64,000 bases of DNA from Arthrobacter citreus (lineage in GTDB: Bacteria > Actinomycetota > Actinomycetes > Actinomycetales > Micrococcaceae): positions 248,001 to 312,000 of the forward strand of contig NZ_CP151657.1 in assembly GCF_038405225.1 (NCBI RefSeq), in the 5' to 3' direction. Shown in pieces: positions 10,153 through 48,700 of this stretch (within the stretch, counting starts at the first letter, position 1; every line of letters starts with the position of its first letter). The position numbers and the translations under genes are program-made. The notes below the pieces were generated by a model that was not told the DNA's origin, did not search any database, and saw nothing but the letters and a program-made list of their open reading frames with translations.

Positions 10153-11244
10153 ATGACTTACCTGAGCCCCCTCTTGTCCCGTCACGGCGCGGTGGAAGCC
10201 GGCGGCCTTGATGCCGGCGTCGCCGCCCACTACGGCGATCCGCTGCGCGAACAGCGTGAATTGGCCCGCGGAAACGCCGTTGTGGACCTCTCGCACCGAG
10301 GCGTTGTCACCGTCAGCGGCCCCGACCGGCTGAGCTGGCTGAATACCCTTTCCTCGCAGGGCGTTCTCGACCTGAAACCCGGGATGAGTTCGGAACTGCT
10401 GCTGCTCAGCGTGCAGGGGCGGATTGAGCACGACGCCCGGATCCTCGACGACGGCAACACCGCGTGGCTGACCGTGGAGGCAGCCGAAGCCGAGCCCCTG
10501 GCCCAGTGGCTCGACCGGATGAAATTCATGCTCCGGGTGGAGGTGGCGGACGTCAGCGAAGAGTGGGCCGTCGTAGCATCCATGACCCCCGTGCCGGCGT
10601 GGGAGCAGTACCAGTCATGGACAGACCCCTGGCCGAACATCGGCCCGGGCGGCTACGCGTACACCGGTGTTCCCGAAGATTCCCACCCCGGCCGCGACCG
10701 GCCGTGGCACGAGTACCTCATCCCGGCACAGGAGCTGGAGGCGGCCATTGAAGCCTCCGGACGCACCCTGGCCGGCACCATGGCCTCCGAAGCGCTGCGC
10801 ATTGCCGCCTGGCGCCCCCGGATGGGCGCGGAGACTGACGACAAGACCATTCCCCACGAGCTGGACCTGATCCGCACCGCCGTTCACCTGGCCAAGGGTT
10901 GCTACAAGGGCCAGGAAACGGTGGCACGGGTGCACAACCTCGGGCATCCGCCCCGCCGGCTGGTGTTCCTGCAGCTGGACGGCTCGCAGCACACCCTTCC
11001 CGCGCCCGGCAGCGCCGTGCTGCTGGGGGAGCGGAAAGTGGGCACCGTGACCTCCGTGGCCCAGCACTACGAGATGGGCGCAGTGGCCCTGGCGGTGGTG
11101 AAGCGCTCCGCGGACCCGGCCGCAGAACTTGTGGTGGACGACGACGGCGAGCCCTACGCCGCCGCGCAGGAAATCATTGTTGCGCCCGACGCCGGGCAGG
11201 TTGTCGGGCGTGCCGGTGGTTTCCTCCGCCCGCCCCGGCCATAG
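10153..11244 (+). CDS. ygfZ: Folate-binding Fe-S cluster protein YgfZ (GcvT-like)
   Basis: A 363-residue GcvT-fold protein. The diagnostic YgfZ motif is KGCYKGQETVARVHNLG at about residues 250-266, including the conserved cysteine of the K-G-C-Y-x-G-Q-E signature. YgfZ uses tetrahydrofolate in the repair or assembly of certain Fe-S enzymes. ATG at 10153 opens MTYLSPLLSRHGAVE. The last base of its TAG stop is the first base of a 16-bp tandem repeat. Confidence 0.88.
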   Translation: MTYLSPLLSRHGAVEAGGLDAGVAAHYGDPLREQRELARGNAVVDLSHRGVVTVSGPDRLSWLNTLSSQGVLDLKPGMSSELLLLSVQGRIEHDARILDDGNTAWLTVEAAEAEPLAQWLDRMKFMLRVEVADVSEEWAVVASMTPVPAWEQYQSWTDPWPNIGPGGYAYTGVPEDSHPGRDRPWHEYLIPAQELEAAIEASGRTLAGTMASEALRIAAWRPRMGAETDDKTIPHELDLIRTAVHLAKGCYKGQETVARVHNLGHPPRRLVFLQLDGSQHTLPAPGSAVLLGERKVGTVTSVAQHYEMGAVALAVVKRSADPAAELVVDDDGEPYAAAQEIIVAPDAGQVVGRAGGFLRPPRP

Positions 11245-11327
11245 CCGGAATCAGATACAGCCGGATTCAGACACAGCCGGAATCAGATACAGCCGGATTC
11301 AGACACAGCCGGATTCAGATACAGCCG
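11244..11327 (+). repeat. Tandem repeat of a 16-bp unit, about 5.25 copies
   Basis: Five consecutive 16-bp units starting at 11244, 11260, 11276, 11292 and 11308, alternating between GCCGGAATCAGATACA and GCCGGATTCAGACACA variants, followed by the partial unit GCCG. The array begins on the last base of the ygfZ stop codon and ends 52 bp before the ankyrin gene. The alternation of variants indicates duplication of a 32-bp dimer. Confidence 0.92.
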
Positions 11328-14360: not shown

Positions 14361-15883
14361 CGTTCGAGGTCGCTTTCATTCACGGTCACCAGCACGTTGC
14401 TGGCGAATCCCTTCACATGCACCACAAGCGGGTCTGTGCCTGTTCCATTGAGTTTCCGCTCCGAACTGCGCCATATGCTTCCGGACTCGGTGACAGAATC
14501 GCCGTCGTTGATCGCCACATTGCCGGCCAGCATGTCGGTGCGGACCAGGACGGGAATGTCATTGGGCACCAGGATGGTCATATCACTTGCAGCGACGGTC
14601 ACCGGTACTTCCACGGAGGACCGGCCTGCGTCGGACAGATACCGCAGGTCAAGCTCTCCATCGCCGGCGGCGAGCGCATAACCGCCGGTGGCCGGCTGGG
14701 TGCTGTCCGGTGCCCAGTCCGCCTGATTGGCGACGACGACGTTGGCATAGCTTCCAATGCCGCTTCCGGTGGCGGCGGCAGACACCACGACGACGACGGC
14801 GGTCAGGCCCAGAACTCCCGAGGAACGGCCCATGGCGCCGAGCACCACAATGGCCAGTCCGTTGACCACTGCTGCGCCGGCCAGCGCCACGCCAACGGGT
14901 GAGCCCACATTCATCACGCCGGTGTAGTCCAAGGTCAGGATGATCCCCGCGGTGAGCAGGACCGCACCAAGAACGAGGGCCACCTCGGCGCCCCCGGGGC
15001 TGGTCCGCCGGTGCATGGTGCCGGGCCGTGCGTCGCGGTCCGGCGCACCCCCGTACCCGCCGGAGCCGGGTTGGGCTGGATACGAAGGACGCGCAGGATA
15101 CGCCGGCGTCGGATAAGCCGGCCCGGGGCCCGCCGGAGCGGATCCTGTCGAACCGGGACCTGTCGAACCGGATCCGGTCGAACCGGGACCTGTCGAACCG
15201 AAGCCCGACGGCGCCGGATAAGTGCCCGCAGGATATACGGTTCCGGCGGATTTGCCCCCGGTCGACCCGGCGCTGACGCCGTTGCGGGAACGGGTCGACA
15301 GCCAATAGATCAGGAAGCCAACGCCAGCCACCCAGAAGAGGGGCCAGAAGAAGAAGCCGCCGAACCATCCGTCGTCGGCCCACCACAGGCTTGGTCCGGC
15401 CCCCAGGATGATGGCCGTTAGTGCGCCGGTGGTGCCCGTTGTCCAGGTTCCGCGCAGGGCTTCCTCAGCGTGGATGCGTCCGTCCGGTTCGGGGAGGAAA
15501 GCCCAGGCCAGCCCGTAGAGCAGCAGGCCGACTCCGAACAGGGCCAGGACCACAAACAGTCCGCGGACCAGTATGGGATCCAGGCCAATGCGGGAGGCCG
15601 TGCCGGAGGCTACTCCGCCGATCCAGCGGTCACCGCCGCGCACGACGCCCAGGGAGCGGACCCAGGTGAAAAACCCGCCCGGCCGTTGCTCCGTTCCGGT
15701 GCCGGGAGTTGGTTCGCTCTCCGGCCCCGGTATCCGGTGGGATCCGGCGGCGGTGGCATGCGGGGGCAGGGGCTGGGTGGGAGCACCGTGGGACGGCAAT
15801 GGTTCGGTGGGTGCGCCGGAGGTTTCGGCGGCGGGCAGCCGGTCGTTTCCGGCCGGATCGGGTTCTGAGGGGAGCGGGGTCAT
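14357..15883 (-). CDS. PspC-domain membrane protein with LiaF-like C-terminal domain
   Basis: 508 residues. A Pro/Thr-rich cytoplasmic N-terminus (about 1-75) leads to a PspC domain (about 80-150, with RWIGGVASGTASRIGLDPILVRGLFVVL), another membrane helix near 165-195, a Gly-Ser-Thr-Pro repeat linker (about 210-290), three more hydrophobic helices (about 295-380), and a C-terminal beta-rich part (ELDLRYLSDAGRSSVEVPVTVAASDMTILVP) resembling LiaF/DUF4097 repeats. It is divergent from the PspC kinase by 133 bp, as expected for a stress sensor and its two-component partner. Confidence 0.85.
   Translation of the reverse strand: MTPLPSEPDPAGNDRLPAAETSGAPTEPLPSHGAPTQPLPPHATAAGSHRIPGPESEPTPGTGTEQRPGGFFTWVRSLGVVRGGDRWIGGVASGTASRIGLDPILVRGLFVVLALFGVGLLLYGLAWAFLPEPDGRIHAEEALRGTWTTGTTGALTAIILGAGPSLWWADDGWFGGFFFWPLFWVAGVGFLIYWLSTRSRNGVSAGSTGGKSAGTVYPAGTYPAPSGFGSTGPGSTGSGSTGPGSTGSAPAGPGPAYPTPAYPARPSYPAQPGSGGYGGAPDRDARPGTMHRRTSPGGAEVALVLGAVLLTAGIILTLDYTGVMNVGSPVGVALAGAAVVNGLAIVVLGAMGRSSGVLGLTAVVVVVSAAATGSGIGSYANVVVANQADWAPDSTQPATGGYALAAGDGELDLRYLSDAGRSSVEVPVTVAASDMTILVPNDIPVLVRTDMLAGNVAINDGDSVTESGSIWRSSERKLNGTGTDPLVVHVKGFASNVLVTVNESDLER
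15146..15205 (-). repeat. In-frame 15-bp tandem repeat in the PspC protein linker
   Basis: Four 15-bp units start at 15146, 15161, 15176 and 15191, of the form TGTCGAACCGGGACC. On the coding strand they give the pentapeptide Gly-Ser-Thr-Gly-Pro/Ser repeated in tandem. Unit number can change by slippage without shifting the frame, altering linker length between the sensor part and the C-terminal membrane part. Confidence 0.85.
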
Positions 15884-23578: not shown

Positions 23579-24304
23579 ATGATGCGAAAGACCTTGGTGG
23601 ACACAGTCGCCGATCTGCTGCTGGACCGGATCATTGCGGGGGAGATCCGGCCGGGTTCGGCCCTGCCCTCGGAAGCTGACATTGCAGCTGAATCCAGCGT
23701 CAGCCGCCTGACGGTTCGGGAGGCGTTGAAGGCACTCCGGGCGCAGAACGTGGTCAGCGTCCAGCGCGGCCGCGGCACATACGTCAACGCGCCCGAAGAA
23801 TGGACTTCCCTGGATGCCATGATCCGCGCGGCAGCCTTCGGCAAGGGCCGGAACAATACTTCGGTCCAGCTCCTGGAAGTGCGGCGGATGATCGAAACAG
23901 GTGCGGCTGCCCTCGCCGCGGTGCGGCACACCGAGGATGACCTCAAGCTGCTGCGGGGCCACCTTCAACGGATGGTGGAGGCATCGGACGCGCGCGATGT
24001 GGACCGGTTTGTGGCCGCTGATATTGCCTTCCATGACGTAATCCTCAGGGCGTCGGGAAATATGCTGGTTCCGGCCATGTACCTGCCCTTGGGCCGCCTG
24101 CTCAGCGCCGGCCGCAGGGAGACCTCCGCCGTGCCCGAAATCCAGGAACACGCGATCCTGATGCACCGCGCCATCTACGACGCTTTGGCCTCCGGCAACG
24201 CCGAAGACGCACGGGTTGCGATGGATAACCACATGAACCAGACACATGAGGACCTGGTGCATTACGTGATCGGTGACGACGCCGTGGCCACGGCCGGTTC
24301 CTAG
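23579..24304 (+). CDS. FadR-subfamily GntR transcriptional regulator
   Basis: 241 residues. The N-terminal winged helix (about 1-72) includes LLDRIIAGEIRPGSALPSEADIAAE, SVSRLTVREALKALRAQ and the wing GRGTYVN. The C-terminal all-helical FCD ligand domain (about 95-230) has EVRRMIETGAAALAA and metal/ligand histidines in DIAFHDVILRASGN and EIQEHAILMHRAIYDAL. It most likely represses itself and the acid sugar genes at 25018-29778 through the paired operators, released by a sugar acid intermediate. Start ATG 23579 or the adjacent ATG 23582. Confidence 0.92.
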   Translation: MMRKTLVDTVADLLLDRIIAGEIRPGSALPSEADIAAESSVSRLTVREALKALRAQNVVSVQRGRGTYVNAPEEWTSLDAMIRAAAFGKGRNNTSVQLLEVRRMIETGAAALAAVRHTEDDLKLLRGHLQRMVEASDARDVDRFVAADIAFHDVILRASGNMLVPAMYLPLGRLLSAGRRETSAVPEIQEHAILMHRAIYDALASGNAEDARVAMDNHMNQTHEDLVHYVIGDDAVATAGS

Positions 24305-24415
24305 CGGTCACGCCCCGGCCCCTGGCAGGCCGGCCCGTGTGTCTGGCCCCCGGTGTCTGGTCTCGGGTGACTGGCTCCGAAAACTCCACGCCGGATCATC
24401 CAACGGTGTTGATGT
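24305..24415. other. Gap between regulator gene and repeat array B
   Basis: No gene seen. The segment has three short GTGTCTGG-like stretches (CCGTGTGTCTGGCCCCCGG type) just after the regulator stop. The bases from about 24395 (AACGGTGTTGATGTCC) resemble the spacer of the repeat arrays, so the array may begin slightly before its first full unit. Confidence 0.5.
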
Positions 24416-24869
24416 CCTGTTCTCTGCGCGAAGGATGCGGCTGAGGGACCCCGCGGGTTTCTGCGCGCATCTATTGTGCAGATCAGGGGCTTTCCGGAAA
24501 TCCTTCGTGCAGATCAGGGGCGCTAGAGGGCCAATTTGGTGCTTTTGGTGCCATTATCTGCGCGAAGGATCGCGGGGACGGAGCGGATCGCCCTTTATCT
24601 GCGCGAAGGATCGCGGGGCCGGAGCGGATCGCCCGTTATCTGCGCGATGGATGCGGCTGAGGGACCCCGCGGGTTTCTGCGCGTATCTATTGTGCAGATC
24701 AGGGGCTTTCCGGAAATCCTTCGTGCAGATCAGGGGGCACAAGAGGGCCAATTTGGTGCTTTTGGTGCCATTATCTGCGCGAAGGATCGCGGGGACGGAG
24801 CGGATCGCCCTTTATCTGCGCGAAGGATCGCGGGGCCGGAGCGGATCGCCCGTTATCTGCGCGATAGAT
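24416..24869. repeat. Array B of the 21-bp repeat family, with a 216/217-bp tandem duplication
   Basis: Eleven 21-bp units. Forward copies end at 24436, 24570, 24611, 24652, 24787, 24828 and 24869; reverse copies lie at 24469, 24500, 24685 and 24716. Spacers are 20 bp between forward units, 10 bp between reverse pairs and 29-30 bp from the reverse to the forward group, as in array A. Segment 24437-24652 is repeated as 24653-24869 with only a handful of differences by eye. Continuous open frames through this DNA are a by-product of the repeats; the peptides are repetitive and unlike any family. Confidence 0.92.
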
Positions 24870-24985
24870 GCGGCTGAGGGGCCCCGCCCTGATGTGACCG
24901 TGCCCCGATTTCAGTTCCTTGCCCAACGCGCCACGAGCTGCCCGCGCATCCCGCTGCTTGTATCTTTGGACACACTTATGAGTAA

Positions 24986-25002
24986 GATGTCTGACATCTG
25001 AC
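24986..25002. promoter_or_regulatory. Probable GntR operator, site 2 (acid sugar operon)
   Basis: AGATGTCTGACATCT (24986-25000) is a 15-base palindrome around a single central base, and GTCTGACATCTGAC (24989-25002) matches site 1 at 13 of 14 positions. It overlaps a possible -10 (TAAGAT, 24983-24988) and ends 15 bp before the kinase ATG, the same relative place as site 1 before the regulator. Confidence 0.75.
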
Positions 25003-25017
25003 TACATAGGAGTTTTC

Positions 25018-26460
25018 ATGGAAGATCTGGACATGCTGCTTGCGGAGTATCCCGCCGCAGTGCAGGTGCCGGCAGCTGCCGTAGCGGCCGGAACAGCGGG
25101 CAGCGTTTTTGTTGTTCTGGACGATGATCCCACCGGCACCCAGTCCGTAGCAGGGCTGCCCGTCCTCACCTCGTGGGAAAAATCCGACTTTGAGTGGGCC
25201 TTCAACACCGGCACCCCCGCCCTCTATGTGCTGACGAATTCCCGCAGCCTTTCAACGCAGGATGCGGCCCGGATCAACCGTGAAATTGTCGCCGGCGCCC
25301 TGGCCGCAGCCGCGGACCGCGACATCCGCCTGTCCTTTGTCTCCCGCAGCGACTCCACTCTCCGGGGCCACTTCCCGCTGGAAACAGATGTCCTGGGCGA
25401 AGCGCTCGTCGCCGCCGGATTCCCGGCACCGGATGCCGTGATCATGGTTCCGGCTTTTCCGGAAGCCAACCGGATCACCATTGGATCGGTGCACTACATG
25501 CGCAGCGCGGGGGAGCTCCAGCCGATCGCCGAAACGGAGTTCGCCCGTGACGCAACGTTTGGCTATGCCAACTCCAACCTCAGGAACTATGTCGAGGAGA
25601 AGACCCGGGGGCGGGTGGCCGCCGGCGACGTCGTGCCCCTTACCCTTGACGTCATCCGCAGTGGCCCGGAAGCCGTCGCGGCGGTCCTCGCCTCGGTCAC
25701 CGGCGGCAATCCGGTGGTGGCGGACGCCGTGACGGAAGATGATCTGCGCCTGTTGGCACTGGGCCTGCAGCAGGCAGAAGCCGCCGGCCGGCGCTTCGTG
25801 TACCGGGTGGGTCCACCGTTTGTCCGGGCCGCCATCGGTCAGGAACAGCATGCCCCGCTGACCGCAGACGACGTTTATGGGCCGAGGAGCACCACCGGGC
25901 AGAACGCCCAAGCCGGCTCGCGCGAGGGCGGGCTGATTGTCGTCGGCTCGCACGTGGGCCTGACCACCCGCCAGCTGAACCACCTGCAGAGCACCCGCCC
26001 GCCGGCGTTTACCGCCGAAATCACTGTCGAACTCATCCTCGATGACGCGGCGCGTGAGGCGCACCTGGCCACGGTGGCAGACGCGGTGGCCTCGGCGCTG
26101 AAGAAAGGCGACGTCGTCCTGCACACCAGCCGGCTGCTGATCACGGCCGCGACGGGCGATGAGTCGCTGAATATTTCCCGCCGTGTTTCGGCCGCCGTCG
26201 TGGACGTTGTCCGCCGTGTCCTGGCCGCCAACCCGCCCCGGTTCGTCATCGCCAAGGGTGGCATCACATCATCCGACGTCGCGGCCAAGGGCCTGCAGAT
26301 CCGCCGCGCCATTGTCCGCGGGCCCATGCTCCCGGGCATCGTCTCGCTGTGGGAACCCGTGGACGGCCCGGCACAGGGCATCCCATACGTGGTCTTCGCG
26401 GGCAACGTCGGAGACGACTCCTCACTAACCGCCGTCGTTGCCACCCTGTCCAAGCCCTGA
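25018..26460 (+). CDS. Four-carbon acid sugar kinase family protein (DUF1537)
   Basis: 480 residues, the length of OtnK/DtnK/LtnK-type kinases. The N-terminal substrate domain opens VFVVLDDDPTGTQSVAG and has SRSDSTLRGHFPLE; the C-terminal ATP domain has GGLIVVGSHVGLTTRQ, FVIAKGGITSSDVAAKGL and YVVFAGNVGDD. These kinases phosphorylate 3-oxo-tetronates or tetronates at C4. GGAG lies eight bases before the ATG at 25018. First gene of a four-gene cluster behind operator site 2; the precise substrate is not readable from sequence. Confidence 0.9.
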   Translation: MEDLDMLLAEYPAAVQVPAAAVAAGTAGSVFVVLDDDPTGTQSVAGLPVLTSWEKSDFEWAFNTGTPALYVLTNSRSLSTQDAARINREIVAGALAAAADRDIRLSFVSRSDSTLRGHFPLETDVLGEALVAAGFPAPDAVIMVPAFPEANRITIGSVHYMRSAGELQPIAETEFARDATFGYANSNLRNYVEEKTRGRVAAGDVVPLTLDVIRSGPEAVAAVLASVTGGNPVVADAVTEDDLRLLALGLQQAEAAGRRFVYRVGPPFVRAAIGQEQHAPLTADDVYGPRSTTGQNAQAGSREGGLIVVGSHVGLTTRQLNHLQSTRPPAFTAEITVELILDDAAREAHLATVADAVASALKKGDVVLHTSRLLITAATGDESLNISRRVSAAVVDVVRRVLAANPPRFVIAKGGITSSDVAAKGLQIRRAIVRGPMLPGIVSLWEPVDGPAQGIPYVVFAGNVGDDSSLTAVVATLSKP

Positions 26461-26512: not shown

Positions 26513-27409
26513 ATGAACACATCATCCGAATACACCGTCGCCGTCCTGGGCCTGGGCGCCATGGGCCTGCCCATGGCAACCCGCCTGGCCACGAGCCTGC
26601 AGGTGAACGGTTTCGACATCGCCCCTGCCCGCCTCGAGCTGGCCGGCGCCGCCGGCATCCGCACCTTCACCTCCGGGGCTGAGGCGGCAGCCGGAGCTGA
26701 CGCCGTGCTGCTGGCCGTCCGCAACGGCGCCCAGCTCAACGATGTCCTGTTCGGCGACACCGGGATCGCCGACGCCCTGAAGCCGGGCGCCGTCGTCATC
26801 ATGACATCCACCGTGGGCGTGGCCGCCGTTACTGAAGTGGCGGAGAAGCTGGCGGAGCTCAGCGTCGAGCTCGTTGACGCACCGCTGTCCGGCGGCCCGG
26901 TCCGCGCGGGCACGGGCGATCTGCTGATTGTGGTCGGAGCATCCGACGCCGCGCGGGACCGCGCCCAGCCCGTCTTGGACCTGCTGGCATCCACGCTGAG
27001 CATTGTCGGCAACAAGGCCGGCGACGGCCAGGCGCTGAAGACCGTGAACCAGCTGCTTTGCGGAGTGCACATCGCGGCAGCTGCCGAGGCGCTGGCACTG
27101 GCCAAGTCGCTGGGACTGGACGAGGGCAAAACGCTCGATGCCCTCCAAGCCGGCGCAGCCGCGTCCTTCATGCTCGGCAACCGCGGGCCGCGCATGCTCG
27201 AGGCCTATGAGGAAGGCGGGGCCGAAGTCCTTAGCCGCCTGGACATCTTCGTCAAGGACATGGGAATCGTCACCAAGGCGGCCCGCGAGGTGGCGCTGCC
27301 GACGCCGGTGGCAGCCGCCGCGGAACAGCTGTACCTGCTGGGCCAGGCTGCCGGACTTGGTGCCGCGGATGATTCCGCGGTCATCAAGGTGCTGGCTCCC
27401 GAAGGCTAG
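26513..27409 (+). CDS. NAD-dependent beta-hydroxyacid dehydrogenase (LtnD-like)
   Basis: 298 residues. The Rossmann motif is VAVLGLGAMGLPMATRLA (about 8-25); the substrate motif DAPLSGGPVRAGTGDLLIVVG and the catalytic lysine region LKTVNQLLCGVHIAAAAEALALAKSLG follow. It belongs to the 3-hydroxyisobutyrate dehydrogenase superfamily, whose LtnD/DenD members oxidise C2 or C3 of tetronates before the kinase acts. AAAGGATCC precedes the ATG at 26513. It lies 52 bp after the kinase, the usual partner of DUF1537 kinases. Confidence 0.88.
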   Translation: MNTSSEYTVAVLGLGAMGLPMATRLATSLQVNGFDIAPARLELAGAAGIRTFTSGAEAAAGADAVLLAVRNGAQLNDVLFGDTGIADALKPGAVVIMTSTVGVAAVTEVAEKLAELSVELVDAPLSGGPVRAGTGDLLIVVGASDAARDRAQPVLDLLASTLSIVGNKAGDGQALKTVNQLLCGVHIAAAAEALALAKSLGLDEGKTLDALQAGAAASFMLGNRGPRMLEAYEEGGAEVLSRLDIFVKDMGIVTKAAREVALPTPVAAAAEQLYLLGQAAGLGAADDSAVIKVLAPEG

Positions 27410-27417
27410 TCACTCCC

Positions 27418-27478
27418 CATCCTGCCGTACCTCCACCTGCACTACCCCCCACCTGCACTACCCCTCACCCGCATTACC
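27418..27478 (+). repeat. C-rich degenerate 16-bp repeats before the permease gene
   Basis: Copies of a CACCTGCACTACCCCC-like unit begin at 27434, 27450 and 27466, exactly 16 bp apart, with a weaker copy at 27418. The strand is extremely C-rich and G-poor, so the transcript would be unstructured here. Confidence 0.7.
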
Positions 27479-27503
27479 TTCACCCTGTCAAAGGAGACAC
27501 ACC

Positions 27504-28916
27504 ATGAGCGCACTGACGCTCCTGATCATCGCTGTGGCCGGCGTCGCCGTGCTGCTGCTGGCCGTGATCAAGTTCAAGATTCCGGCCTTCCTGGCACTGC
27601 TGACCGTCAGTGTGCTGGTGGCCGTTGCCGCCGGGATACCGCTGGACGAAGTAATCGCAGCCGTCCAGGCGGGTATGGGCGGCACCCTGGGTTCCGTGGC
27701 GATCCTGGTGGGCCTGGGCGCGATGCTCGGGAAAATGATCGAACTCTCCGGCGGCGCCGAGGCGCTGGCCGGCAAGTTTACGAAGATTCTCGGCTCCAAG
27801 CGGGTCACTGCGGCCCTGACCGGCGCGGCCTTCCTGCTGGCCATTCCCGTCTTCTTTGACGTCGGATTCATCATCCTGGTTCCGATCATTTACGGTTTCG
27901 CCAAGGCCGCCGGCGTCAACCCGCTCAAGGTCGGCCTGCCCGTGGCAGCCATTATGCTCGCCATCCACGTGGTGGTTCCGCCGCACCCCGGCATTGTGGG
28001 CGGCGCCGGGGTCATCGGCGCCGATATCGGCTGGATCACCATCCTGGCCCTTTCGGTGTGCGCCGTGCTCGCTTTCCCGGCGTACTTTGTGGCCCAGTGG
28101 ATGAACCGCCGGGACTACCCGATGGTGGCCGCCACCGCTGAACAGTTCCGGCTCTTCGGCAGCGGGAAGTCCGATGTGGAGGTTGAATCCGGCGCCGGCA
28201 ACACCGCCGTCAAAACATCAGTGCAGGCACCGCCATCCCCGGCGATGATCATCACCCTCATCGTCCTGCCCATCCTCATGATCATGGCCGGCACCGTCAG
28301 CGCCGTCGTCCTTCCCGATGACGCCGCCGCGCTGCCGGTCCTGAGCCTCATCGGTTCACCCGTGATCGCCCTGCTGGTGACCGTCTTCCTGGCGTTCTTC
28401 TTCCTGGGCATCCGCCGGGGCTGGAGCTCGGCGACCACCGGCGAAGTGATGGATGCCGCCCTGGCCCCCACCGCCATCGTCATTCTCGTGACGGGTGCCG
28501 GAGGCGCCTTCGGCAAGGTGCTGACCGAATCCGGCATCGGCACCGCACTGGCTGACACGCTGTCGTCGGCCGGCCTGCCCATCCTGCTGATGGCCTATGT
28601 GCTGGCCGCAGTGCTGCGGGCGGCGCAGGGTTCCGCGACCGTTGCCATCGTGACCACTGCCGGCCTGCTGGCGGCATCGGTCTCCGGCGGAGACTTCTCC
28701 GCCCTGCAGATGGCACTGATCACCATGGCTGTCGGATTCGGTGCGTTTGGCTTCTCGCACGTGAATGACTCCGGGTTCTGGATCGTGACGCGCTACCTTG
28801 GCCTGTCGGTGGCGGACGGACTGAAAACCTGGACTGTCCTGACCACCCTCCTGGGTATCTGCGGCTTCCTCCTGACCTGCGGCCTGTGGCTCGTCCTCAG
28901 TCCGCTGGCGGGCTGA
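27504..28916 (+). CDS. GntP-family gluconate/acid sugar permease
   Basis: 470 residues with about 12-14 membrane helices. Family motifs are FLALLTVSVLVAVAAGIPLDE, GLGAMLGKMIELSGGAEALA, FFDVGFIILVPIIYGFAK, VVPPHPGIVGGAG and GFSHVNDSGFWIV. AAGGAG lies before the ATG at 27504; an upstream in-frame opening only reads through the dehydrogenase gene out of frame. It presumably imports the acid sugar degraded by the neighbouring enzymes. It ends 1 bp before the aldolase gene. Confidence 0.93.
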   Translation: MSALTLLIIAVAGVAVLLLAVIKFKIPAFLALLTVSVLVAVAAGIPLDEVIAAVQAGMGGTLGSVAILVGLGAMLGKMIELSGGAEALAGKFTKILGSKRVTAALTGAAFLLAIPVFFDVGFIILVPIIYGFAKAAGVNPLKVGLPVAAIMLAIHVVVPPHPGIVGGAGVIGADIGWITILALSVCAVLAFPAYFVAQWMNRRDYPMVAATAEQFRLFGSGKSDVEVESGAGNTAVKTSVQAPPSPAMIITLIVLPILMIMAGTVSAVVLPDDAAALPVLSLIGSPVIALLVTVFLAFFFLGIRRGWSSATTGEVMDAALAPTAIVILVTGAGGAFGKVLTESGIGTALADTLSSAGLPILLMAYVLAAVLRAAQGSATVAIVTTAGLLAASVSGGDFSALQMALITMAVGFGAFGFSHVNDSGFWIVTRYLGLSVADGLKTWTVLTTLLGICGFLLTCGLWLVLSPLAG

Positions 28917-45744: not shown

Positions 45745-48700
45745 ATGGGCGCGTTGATAACGGTGGTGGTGCTCGTCTTTGCGGGTATCGGATTTGCCAT
45801 CGGGTGGTTCTGCCGGAGCGGTATTTCGTCCCGACGGTCCGCAGCTGCCGACGGCGCCCTTACCGCGGCCGCCGCCGATGCCCTCTCCCGGGCCTATGAT
45901 GACGGGTTTCGGGCCGGTTACGGCAGCGCCGCTGCAGCTGCTGCGGGTTCGGGGGAGCGGATGGAGACGCCGGCCCGGGTGGCTGGCCCCACAGCAGGGG
46001 GTGCCCCCGCACCGACAGGTGCCCCAACTTCCTTTAGCAGCCCGCCACCGATCAGCACACAGGCCAGCGCACCGCCCAGCGTCCCGGCCAGCGCACCGCC
46101 CAGCGTCCCGCCGGCGCCCAACGCCGGGACACGGCTTGGTCCACCGGCCCCGTTCAGCCCTCCGGCTCCACCTCGCCCCTCGGCATCCTTCGGTCCTCCA
46201 ACATCCTTTAGCCCTCCGGCCCCTTTCGGCTCTTCGGCACCGTTTGCCCCCTCCGCTGCCTTTAGCCCGCCGCAGCTTCAGGCTCCGTCCCTTCCACCGG
46301 CCCCGGCTCCGCCGATGCCGGGACCCGCATCCGGCCTGAACTTCCAGCCCGCCGTCCCAGGCCCGCCCCGGCCGCCGTCCGCTGAGGAACTAGCCAGGCG
46401 GGCCGCTGAAGAAGAGGCCCGCAAACGGCGCCGCGACCTGCGGAACATCAACATCACCCTGTACGCCGCATGCCTGCTGCTCGTTGCCGCGGCATCACTG
46501 TTTATTGGGCTGGCCATACCCGAAGGCGCCAGGTTCGCGGGCGTTTCCCTGGTAACCGGGCTGTTTTATGCCGGCGGACTGGTGGTCCACGCGCGGAGCC
46601 GTCGGCTGCGTCCTGCCGGGGTTGCCTTTACCGGCACCGGGCTTGCCCTCATTCCGGTGGTGGGGCTCGCCCTGCATAACCTCGCGCTGCGGGATGCACC
46701 GCTGTCCTGGCTGGTGACCTCGGTAGTCGGCACTGCGGCCTTTGGCTACGCTGCGGCCCGGCTGGAGAGCCGGGTGGTGGCTTACCTGTCCATGACGTTC
46801 CTGCTCTCCACGGCGCTTGCATCAGGTGCCTCGATGCGCTCCGGGATCATGTGGTATTTCCTGTTTACCGTGCTCCTGGCGATCGCTGTGTCGCTGGTGG
46901 CCATGCGCCGTCCTGCGTGGCTCGGGAACATCTATATGGCGGCCTTCATACAGTCCCACCGCTTTCTGGTCCCGGCGACGGCTGTGGTTGCCCTTCTGAC
47001 CGCTGTGGAACTGGGCGGCTGGCAGTTCTCCCTTCTGTTCCTCGCCTTCTCCTGCTACTACGCAGTGATCTCGCTGCAGGCCGGGCGCCGGGAAAGGCTG
47101 TTCAACAGCTACGGGTTTCGGGTGACGGCAACAGCCGGTTTGGCCGTCCTGGCCTACAAGGTGACGGGTGATACAGCGGCTGCCCTCCTGGCAGCTTCCC
47201 TGCTGCTGTTGGTGCAGGCAGCCGGTCTGCTGGCCTTGCGCCGCCGCTATTCAGCCCTGGGCGGCAAACCGTTTTTTGTCGCTGATTACGTGCTCGTGAT
47301 CGTGCTTCAGATACTGGCCGGACTGACCGCGGGCCAGTCAGCAGCCGGCATCCTGCCGGAAGGCAGCACCAGCCAGATACTGTTCACCGCAACAGCCGTG
47401 GCGGTCCTGCTGACGTGCATGGGCGGGGCATGGAGAATCAAGACAATCCCCGATGCCGTTCCGGCCGGCGCAGTCCTGCTCGGATTTCCTGCCTGGTTCA
47501 ACGGTTCGTCGGGCACGTTGTGGCCGGCCGTTATCCTGCTGGTGCTGCTGGCCGGATACTTCGCCCTTCGCACAGCGGGCAGCAGGGGGGCGGCGAAGGA
47601 AGACTACCGGCTGTGGGTCAGGGCAACGGCCGTCATGCTGGTTGCCGTGGCGTCGATGGCTGTCCTGGAAGCCACAGGAGCGGGCGTGCGGGAAGCCTTG
47701 ATCTGGTCCCTGTTCGCGACAGCCGCCGTCATACTGCTGAACCAGCTCGTTTCCGTGTACCTGCTGACCCTACGGGCCGGAAACGCTGTGCCACGCACCC
47801 GCGGCGAATCGACCCGCCGGGAAGTTCCAGTGGTTGCCGTTACCGCCGGGTTGGCGGTAATGCTGACCATGGCGCTGCGGCTGGCGGAGGATCCGGAGAT
47901 CACAGTGCCACTGTGGATTTTGTTCTCCGCGCTGTCGGTGAATGTGCTGACGTCCCTGGTGCTGCGCCGGTTCTTCGAAGAACGCCCGTGGCTGGAATGG
48001 GTGGGTGCGGGCGGTTTTGCCGTGGCTGCCGCGGTGGGCGCCGGCTTATTGGGAGTGCGGGGATACGAGGTGCTCACGGGTGCCGCGCTGGTTTACAGCG
48101 GATTCATGGCGGTGCGCGGTGCCCGGTCCGGCCGACGGGGCGGCTACCTGCTGGCGGGGCAGATTCTGCTTACCGTCCTGGTGGCGCTGGTGGCAGCCGA
48201 CCTGGATCTTTCCGTGCATGGACTATTCACAACCACGGCACTCTCGGTGATGCTGCAGCTGGTCCTGCGGACAGCCTTGCAGGACCGTTTGGCCGCGGCC
48301 GGCATGGGTGGACTGGTGGCCGCCGCGCAGTGGGGGAGTGCCGGGGTGCTGGTGTTCCTTCCCCTGGCATACGAGGGCGTTGCTGCCCGCCCACTGGCGG
48401 GGACGGTGTCAGTGCTGCTGGTGACAGCTGCAGCCGGCGCACTGTTCCTCCAGCTGTCTGTGGTTGCTCGGCGCGCAGCGGGCAAAGCCGTGCCTTTCAC
48501 CGGCGGTTCACTGGCCGGGGCTGCAGCATTGGTGGCTGCGCTGACGGTTTGGCTGCGGCTGGCGGTTGCCCCGGAGACCGGGCCGACCGTATGGGTGCTG
48601 TCCTCGGCGCTGGCAGCCAATGTACTGACATCGGTGACGCAGCGCCGGCTGTTTCCGGAGAAGCCCTGGCTTCAGTGGGCTGGACCGGCGGGGTTTGCAG

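Follow-up and report, generated by a model that had tools for sequence, protein, structure and literature searches.

Between the gene of a GntR/FCD regulator and an acid-sugar operon in Arthrobacter citreus stands a row of short repeats, here called array B. What is this row, and does it serve the genes beside it? We analysed a window of 64,000 nucleotides (the whole stretch of DNA under study; contig NZ_CP151657.1, positions 248,001 to 312,000) together with the rest of the genome and its relatives. The earlier note on this DNA had counted eleven units in the array, and a 15-bp core, ATCTGCRCGANRGAT, allowed up to three mismatches, recovered all eleven at 24422–24869; a decayed twelfth unit lies at 24382. 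Pfam searches agreed with the neighbours that had been named: the GntR/FCD regulator precedes the array, and the operon follows it, with genes for an acid-sugar kinase type (SBD_N/NBD_C), an NAD-dependent dehydrogenase, a GntP permease and a class II aldolase. Over the whole window a 16-bp unit, ATCTGCGCGAAGGATC, with up to three mismatches, matched 15 times against 0.75 expected from shuffled sequence, nine times in array B and six in a second array of the same family, array A. The features are listed here in window coordinates; units were placed by core match, centres by core spacing, copies by copy alignment and genes by Pfam.

1813–2146: array A, same family, nine units, between thyA and a DUF1648 gene (core match and Pfam)
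23579–24304, plus strand: GntR/FCD regulator gene
24320–24956: stretch absent from the G010 site, comprising array B with about 100 bp to its left and 87 bp to its right (637-bp alignment gap)
24382–24396, plus strand: decayed unit, three mismatches (array start, 272382 in genome coordinates)
24422–24436, plus strand: core unit
24437–24652: tandem copy 1, 216 bp
24469–24483, minus strand: core unit
24500–24514, minus strand: core unit, innermost left of centre 1
24515–24555: centre 1, 41 bp; core-to-core distance 56
24556–24570, plus strand: core unit, innermost right of centre 1
24597–24611, plus strand: core unit
24638–24652, plus strand: core unit
24653–24869: tandem copy 2, 217 bp
24685–24699, minus strand: core unit
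24716–24730, minus strand: core unit, innermost left of centre 2
24731–24772: centre 2, 42 bp; core-to-core distance 57, one extra G (core spacing and copy alignment)
24773–24787, plus strand: core unit, innermost right of centre 2
24814–24828, plus strand: core unit
24855–24869, plus strand: core unit
24985–24999: palindrome AGATGTCTGACATCT, putative GntR operator just upstream of the operon
25018–26460, plus strand: acid-sugar kinase-type gene (SBD_N/NBD_C), first gene of the operon

The two adjacent blocks that the note had described are indeed near copies of one another: they differ in 5 of 217 alignment columns (four substitutions and one 1-bp indel; 97.7% identity), and TRF reported a 217-bp period with 2.2 copies. 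The extra G in copy 2 lengthens the inner core distance from 56 to 57; two of the 30 A. citreus pairs depart from 56, this being one. Other arrays of the genome carry tandem duplications as well, with blocks delimited by eye: L050 has one of 206 bp (89% identity) and L031 one of 113 bp (96.5%), while the blocks compared in L034, L038 and L046 are 72–78% alike. Judged by these identities, the duplication in array B is the freshest among those compared; it may have arisen by slippage or unequal exchange. The window holds further tandem repeats, at 11243–11327 (16/32 bp), 15123–15200 (15/30 bp) and 46046–46117 (12/24 bp), whose consensus falls outside this family. A 16-bp repeat, CCACCTGCACTACCCC, occupies 27415–27478, just before the GntP permease domain; the ORF at 27138–28916 may start later, so this repeat is perhaps intergenic.

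The arrays follow one plan, in which two sets of cores point outward from a centre. A distance of 56 bp separates the innermost minus- and plus-strand cores in 28 of 30 A. citreus pairs and in 40 of 42 pairs from five other species (68 of 72). Over A. citreus and 38 foreign loci, 187 of 209 same-strand steps measure 31 bp (121) or 41 bp (66); the remaining steps include 11 that are off by one, two of 51 and two of 82. The unit profile, built from 164 A. citreus and 171 other units, reads CCC-N-TK-ATCTGCACGANRGAT. The centre is polar, with AACGGG on one side and CCCCTG on the other; among 68 centres, 39 run one way and 26 the opposite way, with three undecided, and by eye this orientation showed no clear bias with respect to replication or gene direction. 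With the last 7 nt set aside, identity is 37% among 59 distinct spacers of the 41 type, against 29% for random sequence of the same composition, and 45% among 107 distinct spacers of the 31 type, against 26%. Since identity among the 41-bp spacers is close to random, their length is preserved although their sequence hardly is. A coding array was rejected, since neither 31 nor 41 is divisible by three. A complete element has a polar 41-bp centre between two outward cores, with extra cores outside at 31 or 41 bp; array B consists of two of these in head-to-tail order, each made up of two minus cores, a centre and three plus cores.

Throughout the A. citreus genome (3.88 Mb) we found 23 multi-unit arrays and one lone unit (L041). 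Cores with at most one mismatch number 78 genome-wide, against none for a reversed control pattern. Overlap between an array and a called gene never exceeds 25 bp, the limit allowed with our home-made gene caller. The gaps that hold arrays are convergent in 8 of 23 cases, tandem in 13 and divergent in two (the lone unit being excluded, and one of the two divergent cases depending on a 31-codon ORF), compared with 22, 71 and 53 of 146 background gaps of at least 100 bp in a 400-kb sample; by Fisher's test, convergent gaps are in excess (p = 0.028) and divergent ones in deficit (p = 0.005). The 38 loci of the five other species comprise 12 convergent, 22 tandem and four divergent gaps. One sampled stretch, L126 (776000–795999), has a GC content of 58% against 64–68% in the other 19 samples, and is perhaps acquired DNA.

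If array B were a cis-regulatory array for the acid-sugar operon or gntR, its position between regulator and operon would be accounted for, and the earlier note had hinted at such a bond. The 22 other arrays, however, adjoin other genes, by eye unrelated, including proC, thyA, galK, dusB and maf (named by eye from their first residues; Pfam assignment covers the window genes and one DUF559 gene). The relatives speak against it too. In A. gandavensis JCM 13316 (G010), the closest relative sampled, 75 bp separate gntR from the operon, against 713 bp here, and no core was found in the corresponding stretches of G006, G017 and G013, except for one three-mismatch match elsewhere in the G013 stretch. 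Only these four relatives yielded both flanks of site B, so that an operon-conservation test on the array gave absence in four of four. All four keep both flanking genes and the operator-like palindrome AGATGTCTGACATCT, which is unaltered in G010, G006 and G017 and changed once in G013; because it is present where the array is absent, the gntR/operon pair keeps its parts without the array. Our results do not support the hinted bond, and we consider a cis-regulatory role very unlikely.

Array B was either gained in the A. citreus lineage or lost from its relatives. Had it inserted there in the manner of a MITE, with inverted ends and a resident transposase, a target-site duplication would be the proof; the filled site, compared with the one close empty site, that of G010, shows no clear duplicated letters. 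Together with the 97.7% identity of the two copies, absence from the four relatives supports the note's further claim of a recent expansion. Array A, of which only two outer units 41 bp apart remain in G010, is older than array B by the same comparison.

Another reading is that the element works as a single strand, in the manner of a REP/BIME-type hairpin, which the inverted centre would form in RNA or lagging-strand DNA and which would serve as a terminator, a stabiliser of mRNA 3' ends or a substrate of transposition. The centres fold very stably as single strands or RNA (z −7.7 and −7.8), but any inverted core pair folds, which makes this capacity a trivial consequence of the inverted cores. 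The avoidance of divergent and preference for convergent gaps (8 of 23 against 22 of 146) also speaks for a hairpin. Strand-selective hairpins show consistently unpaired positions, and two mirror pairs in 67 distinct centres were in fact paired in 24% and 12% of cases, against 43% and 34% expected. Four inner mirror pairs (19/51, 20/50, 25/45 and 26/44) lay somewhat above expectation (permutation p 0.0015–0.034); once the centres had been oriented, the largest excesses were at 21/32 and 19/50, with nominal z 3.4–3.5 among about 2,000 pairs tested. Neither this centre class nor a shorter one (described below), however, showed an overall compensatory pattern. All 33 shorter-class centres together had 139 mirror pairs against 158.0 in re-paired halves, the 29 distinct ones 122 against 138.0, and a subset (26 of the 33 listed 41-bp centres and one other) 116 against 129.9. 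Most of the centres read in species G004, moreover, change GGG to a GCA-like triplet on one side without the complement opposite. In the same species, many units of L165–L170, L174 and L176 carry GCATT or similar before ATCTG rather than CCCGTT, a species-specific subfamily.

Two further observations tell against the hairpin. Terminator-like sites in 24200–25100 number one, against 0.8 expected, and the transposase domain PF01797 (Y1, RAYT-type) was found neither in the A. citreus genome nor in any of 29 genomes of the genus, while 5 of 14 control genomes were positive; its absence from all 29 makes the RAYT route unlikely, and we rejected a REP/RAYT assignment on this ground.

The cores, for their part, are steadier than what surrounds them. 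Orthologous arrays have cores 91.3% and spacers 84.1% identical over 18 locus pairs taken in both directions, and over 31 pairs cores 90.7%, spacers 80.5% and flanks 80.0% identical; both sets were hand-picked from 38 locus pairs that are not independent, and the apparent conservation of cores is biased upward because they were found by similarity. Spacers were conserved at least as well as cores in 9 of 36 directional comparisons. The centres show little sign of compensatory pairing, and this, with cores steadier than spacers, favours helically phased protein-binding sites; a single hairpin is disfavoured on covariation despite its high fold energy. We read this as selection acting on double-stranded sites, not on a hairpin, and regard the hairpin as possible but doubtful.

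Rows of protein-binding sites might organise the chromosome, as sites of a nucleoid or segregation protein. Consistent with this, 13 of the 24 A. citreus loci (L037–L048 and L143) fall inside 550 kb, at 1.78–2.33 Mb, a degree of clustering reached in none of 10,000 random placements for any such window, although the window size was picked post hoc. Five of 12 loci fetched from G004 match loci of this dense region on at least one flank. Many sites are also orthologous between species: 38 locus pairs share at least 150 flanking bases, placing many arrays at the same intergenic site in at least two species. The dense region, on the other hand, lies 0.4–1.0 Mb from a site at 1,361,565 (1.36 Mb) that we take to be dif-like, with three mismatches to the consensus, and far from the origin, whose position was guessed from noisy GC skew. 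Terminus sites were rejected because the region lies away from the dif-like site. Two members of the clade described next, G013 and G019, have few arrays, so that a chromosome-organising function cannot be essential. We hold this reading to be quite improbable.

How widely is the family distributed? The exact core-pair pattern matches records of A. gandavensis JCM 13316 and Arthrobacter sp. APC 3897. It occurs in 7 of 29 genomes of the genus, in G019 by one weak pair only, and in 4 of 245 family genomes drawn, all of the genus. In a tree that rests on one gene, thyA, the array-bearing species fall in one clade of eight (support 100/99) together with G013 and G019. In G039 one core pair, 2.4 kb apart, encloses genes that look ordinary by eye. 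No DNA similar to the array was found in the plasmids, phages and E. coli genomes searched, and viral contigs held no exact core pair. One viral contig matched the generic centre described below at 46 bp, a length absent among the 50 centres listed; in the 481 bases read we noticed no other unit next to it, and we took it as chance, though unproven. Rfam gave no match in the array at the gathering score (its one miRNA match, E 0.98, is at chance level), and a literature search turned up nothing evidently about these repeats. The recurrence of a DUF559 gene beside the maf-site arrays is explained by the orthologous site; the Pfam match is barely over the cut-off at L046 in A. citreus, and the gene at L219 in G008 has none.

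Beyond this clade the same layout recurs with other cores. A sister clade has elements whose centre is shorter by 10 bp, and part of these occupy the same intergenic sites. At the L145 site the CACGANRGAT array was not seen in G013, G021, G001, G019, G008 or G017, nor at the L147 site in G003, G001, G008 or G017; at these sites the elements of G013 and G008 have a different core, and that of G019 has the variant core CACTATGGAT. A generic centre pattern, allowing 30–58 bp, matched 14 of 295 family genomes, namely 13 of 24 from the genus and 1 of 271 others. Among the 50 matches listed, the CAGAT-to-ATCTG centre measures 41 bp in 33, 51 bp in 16 and 43 bp in one. The loci read from the 41-bp class have tails such as ATCTGTACNAC or ATCTGCTCAGTAGAT, and their same-strand steps are mostly 31, 41 or 42. 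Near generic elements, L210, L212, L213 and L215 (in G011, G020, G007 and G041) show a palindromic element, TTCATAGTGCAGT...ACTGCACTATGAAC, in which CTGCACTATG resembles the G019 core ATCTGCACTATGGAT.

Eight of 20 fetched loci of the 41-bp class, at four sites, lie in gaps that hold an array of the 56 class in another species. Sharing across clades concerns the maf–DUF559 gap and the L036 gap, and sharing within the A. citreus clade concerns L242 in G003 and L243 in G004. By chance, well under one shared site would be expected, given about 1,400 gaps of at least 100 bp per genome (146 in 400 kb). The shared gaps are either preferred landing places or places where the core motif was exchanged; simple random spreading does not explain such sharing between array classes. 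Where A. citreus, G010, G003 and G004 have an array, L183 of G013 has a second intergenic tandem repeat, about CCGAGTGTCGGGATGATGCCCTTCCGC, with similar motifs in L184, L185 and L186.

The shared sites invite a more speculative reading, that of a genus-wide lattice. At the same intergenic places, rows with steps of 31 or 41 bp would surround a centre of 46 or 56 bp, and from clade to clade one core would have replaced another (CACGANRGAT, TACNAC or CTCAGTAGAT, each following a shared GTTATCTG), as though tracking a shift in what a single binding protein recognises; this protein would organise the chromosome, silence it, or drive its own sites. We think this unlikely.

On balance we lean towards reading array B as one copy of a lineage-specific, dispersed intergenic repeat of putative helically phased protein-binding sites that rarely moves and has no dedicated role in regulating the operon. 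Each core would be a candidate site for a sequence-specific DNA-binding protein. Distances of 31, 41 and rarely 51 bp, with centres of 46 or 56 bp, would set these sites on one face of the helix, so that the array would carry proteins in a row and not act as a folded RNA; the constancy of 31 and 41 might also stem from the copying of whole units already formed. The element would be a non-autonomous passenger that spreads rarely, selfish or neutral. Its retention in the gaps between genes, mainly close to 3' ends, may reflect that it is least harmful at such places. Arrays would grow by slippage or unequal exchange, the doubling of array B being one such event.

Array B thus offers a defined DNA bait for finding the protein that binds or mobilises it. 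The same spacing rule with different motifs in related species amounts to a natural experiment on how a family of sites and its protein change together. For the acid-sugar operon the lesson is one of caution, as the array beside it looks like a passenger and not a switch.

Hairpins and RAYT transposases are a common explanation for the dispersed repeats of bacteria. The present family lacks a hairpin or RAYT signature and has instead strict spacing in steps of about a helical turn. The protein-bound iterons of plasmids are likewise direct repeats spaced by whole helical turns; by eye, no plasmid-type initiator gene was noticed among 46 flanking proteins, judged from the first 70 residues of each. 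The mycobacterial MIRU resemble the Arthrobacter arrays as actinobacterial intergenic tandem repeats of changing copy number, but have longer units and are not known to have an inverted centre. REP/BIME elements, in the parts of the account consulted, are short intergenic repeats in many copies, with composite arrays of inverted units and lineage-specific variants (PMC2817692). The Arthrobacter arrays are also many-copy, intergenic and composite with inverted units, and likewise vary in sequence from lineage to lineage. The GT(A/G)G head and GC-rich palindrome, however, are absent from the unit profile, the palindrome is not preserved overall by compensatory change, and the units, instead of alternating as that account has it, follow one another head to tail away from a single centre. 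The BOX element of Streptococcus pneumoniae, as portrayed in the sections consulted, is an intergenic repeat built of modules, the tandem ones varying in number, whose copies cluster with other repeat families at the same places and have related variants in other species (PMC3049150). To that extent the Arthrobacter repeat is alike, being modular, intergenic, variable in unit number, clustered at places shared with other repeat families and represented by variants in related species. BOX has fixed ends and a variable inside, its modules lying, by the same sections, between boxA and boxC, whereas in Arthrobacter the centre is fixed and the variable units stand outside it, at distances that differ by 10 bp.
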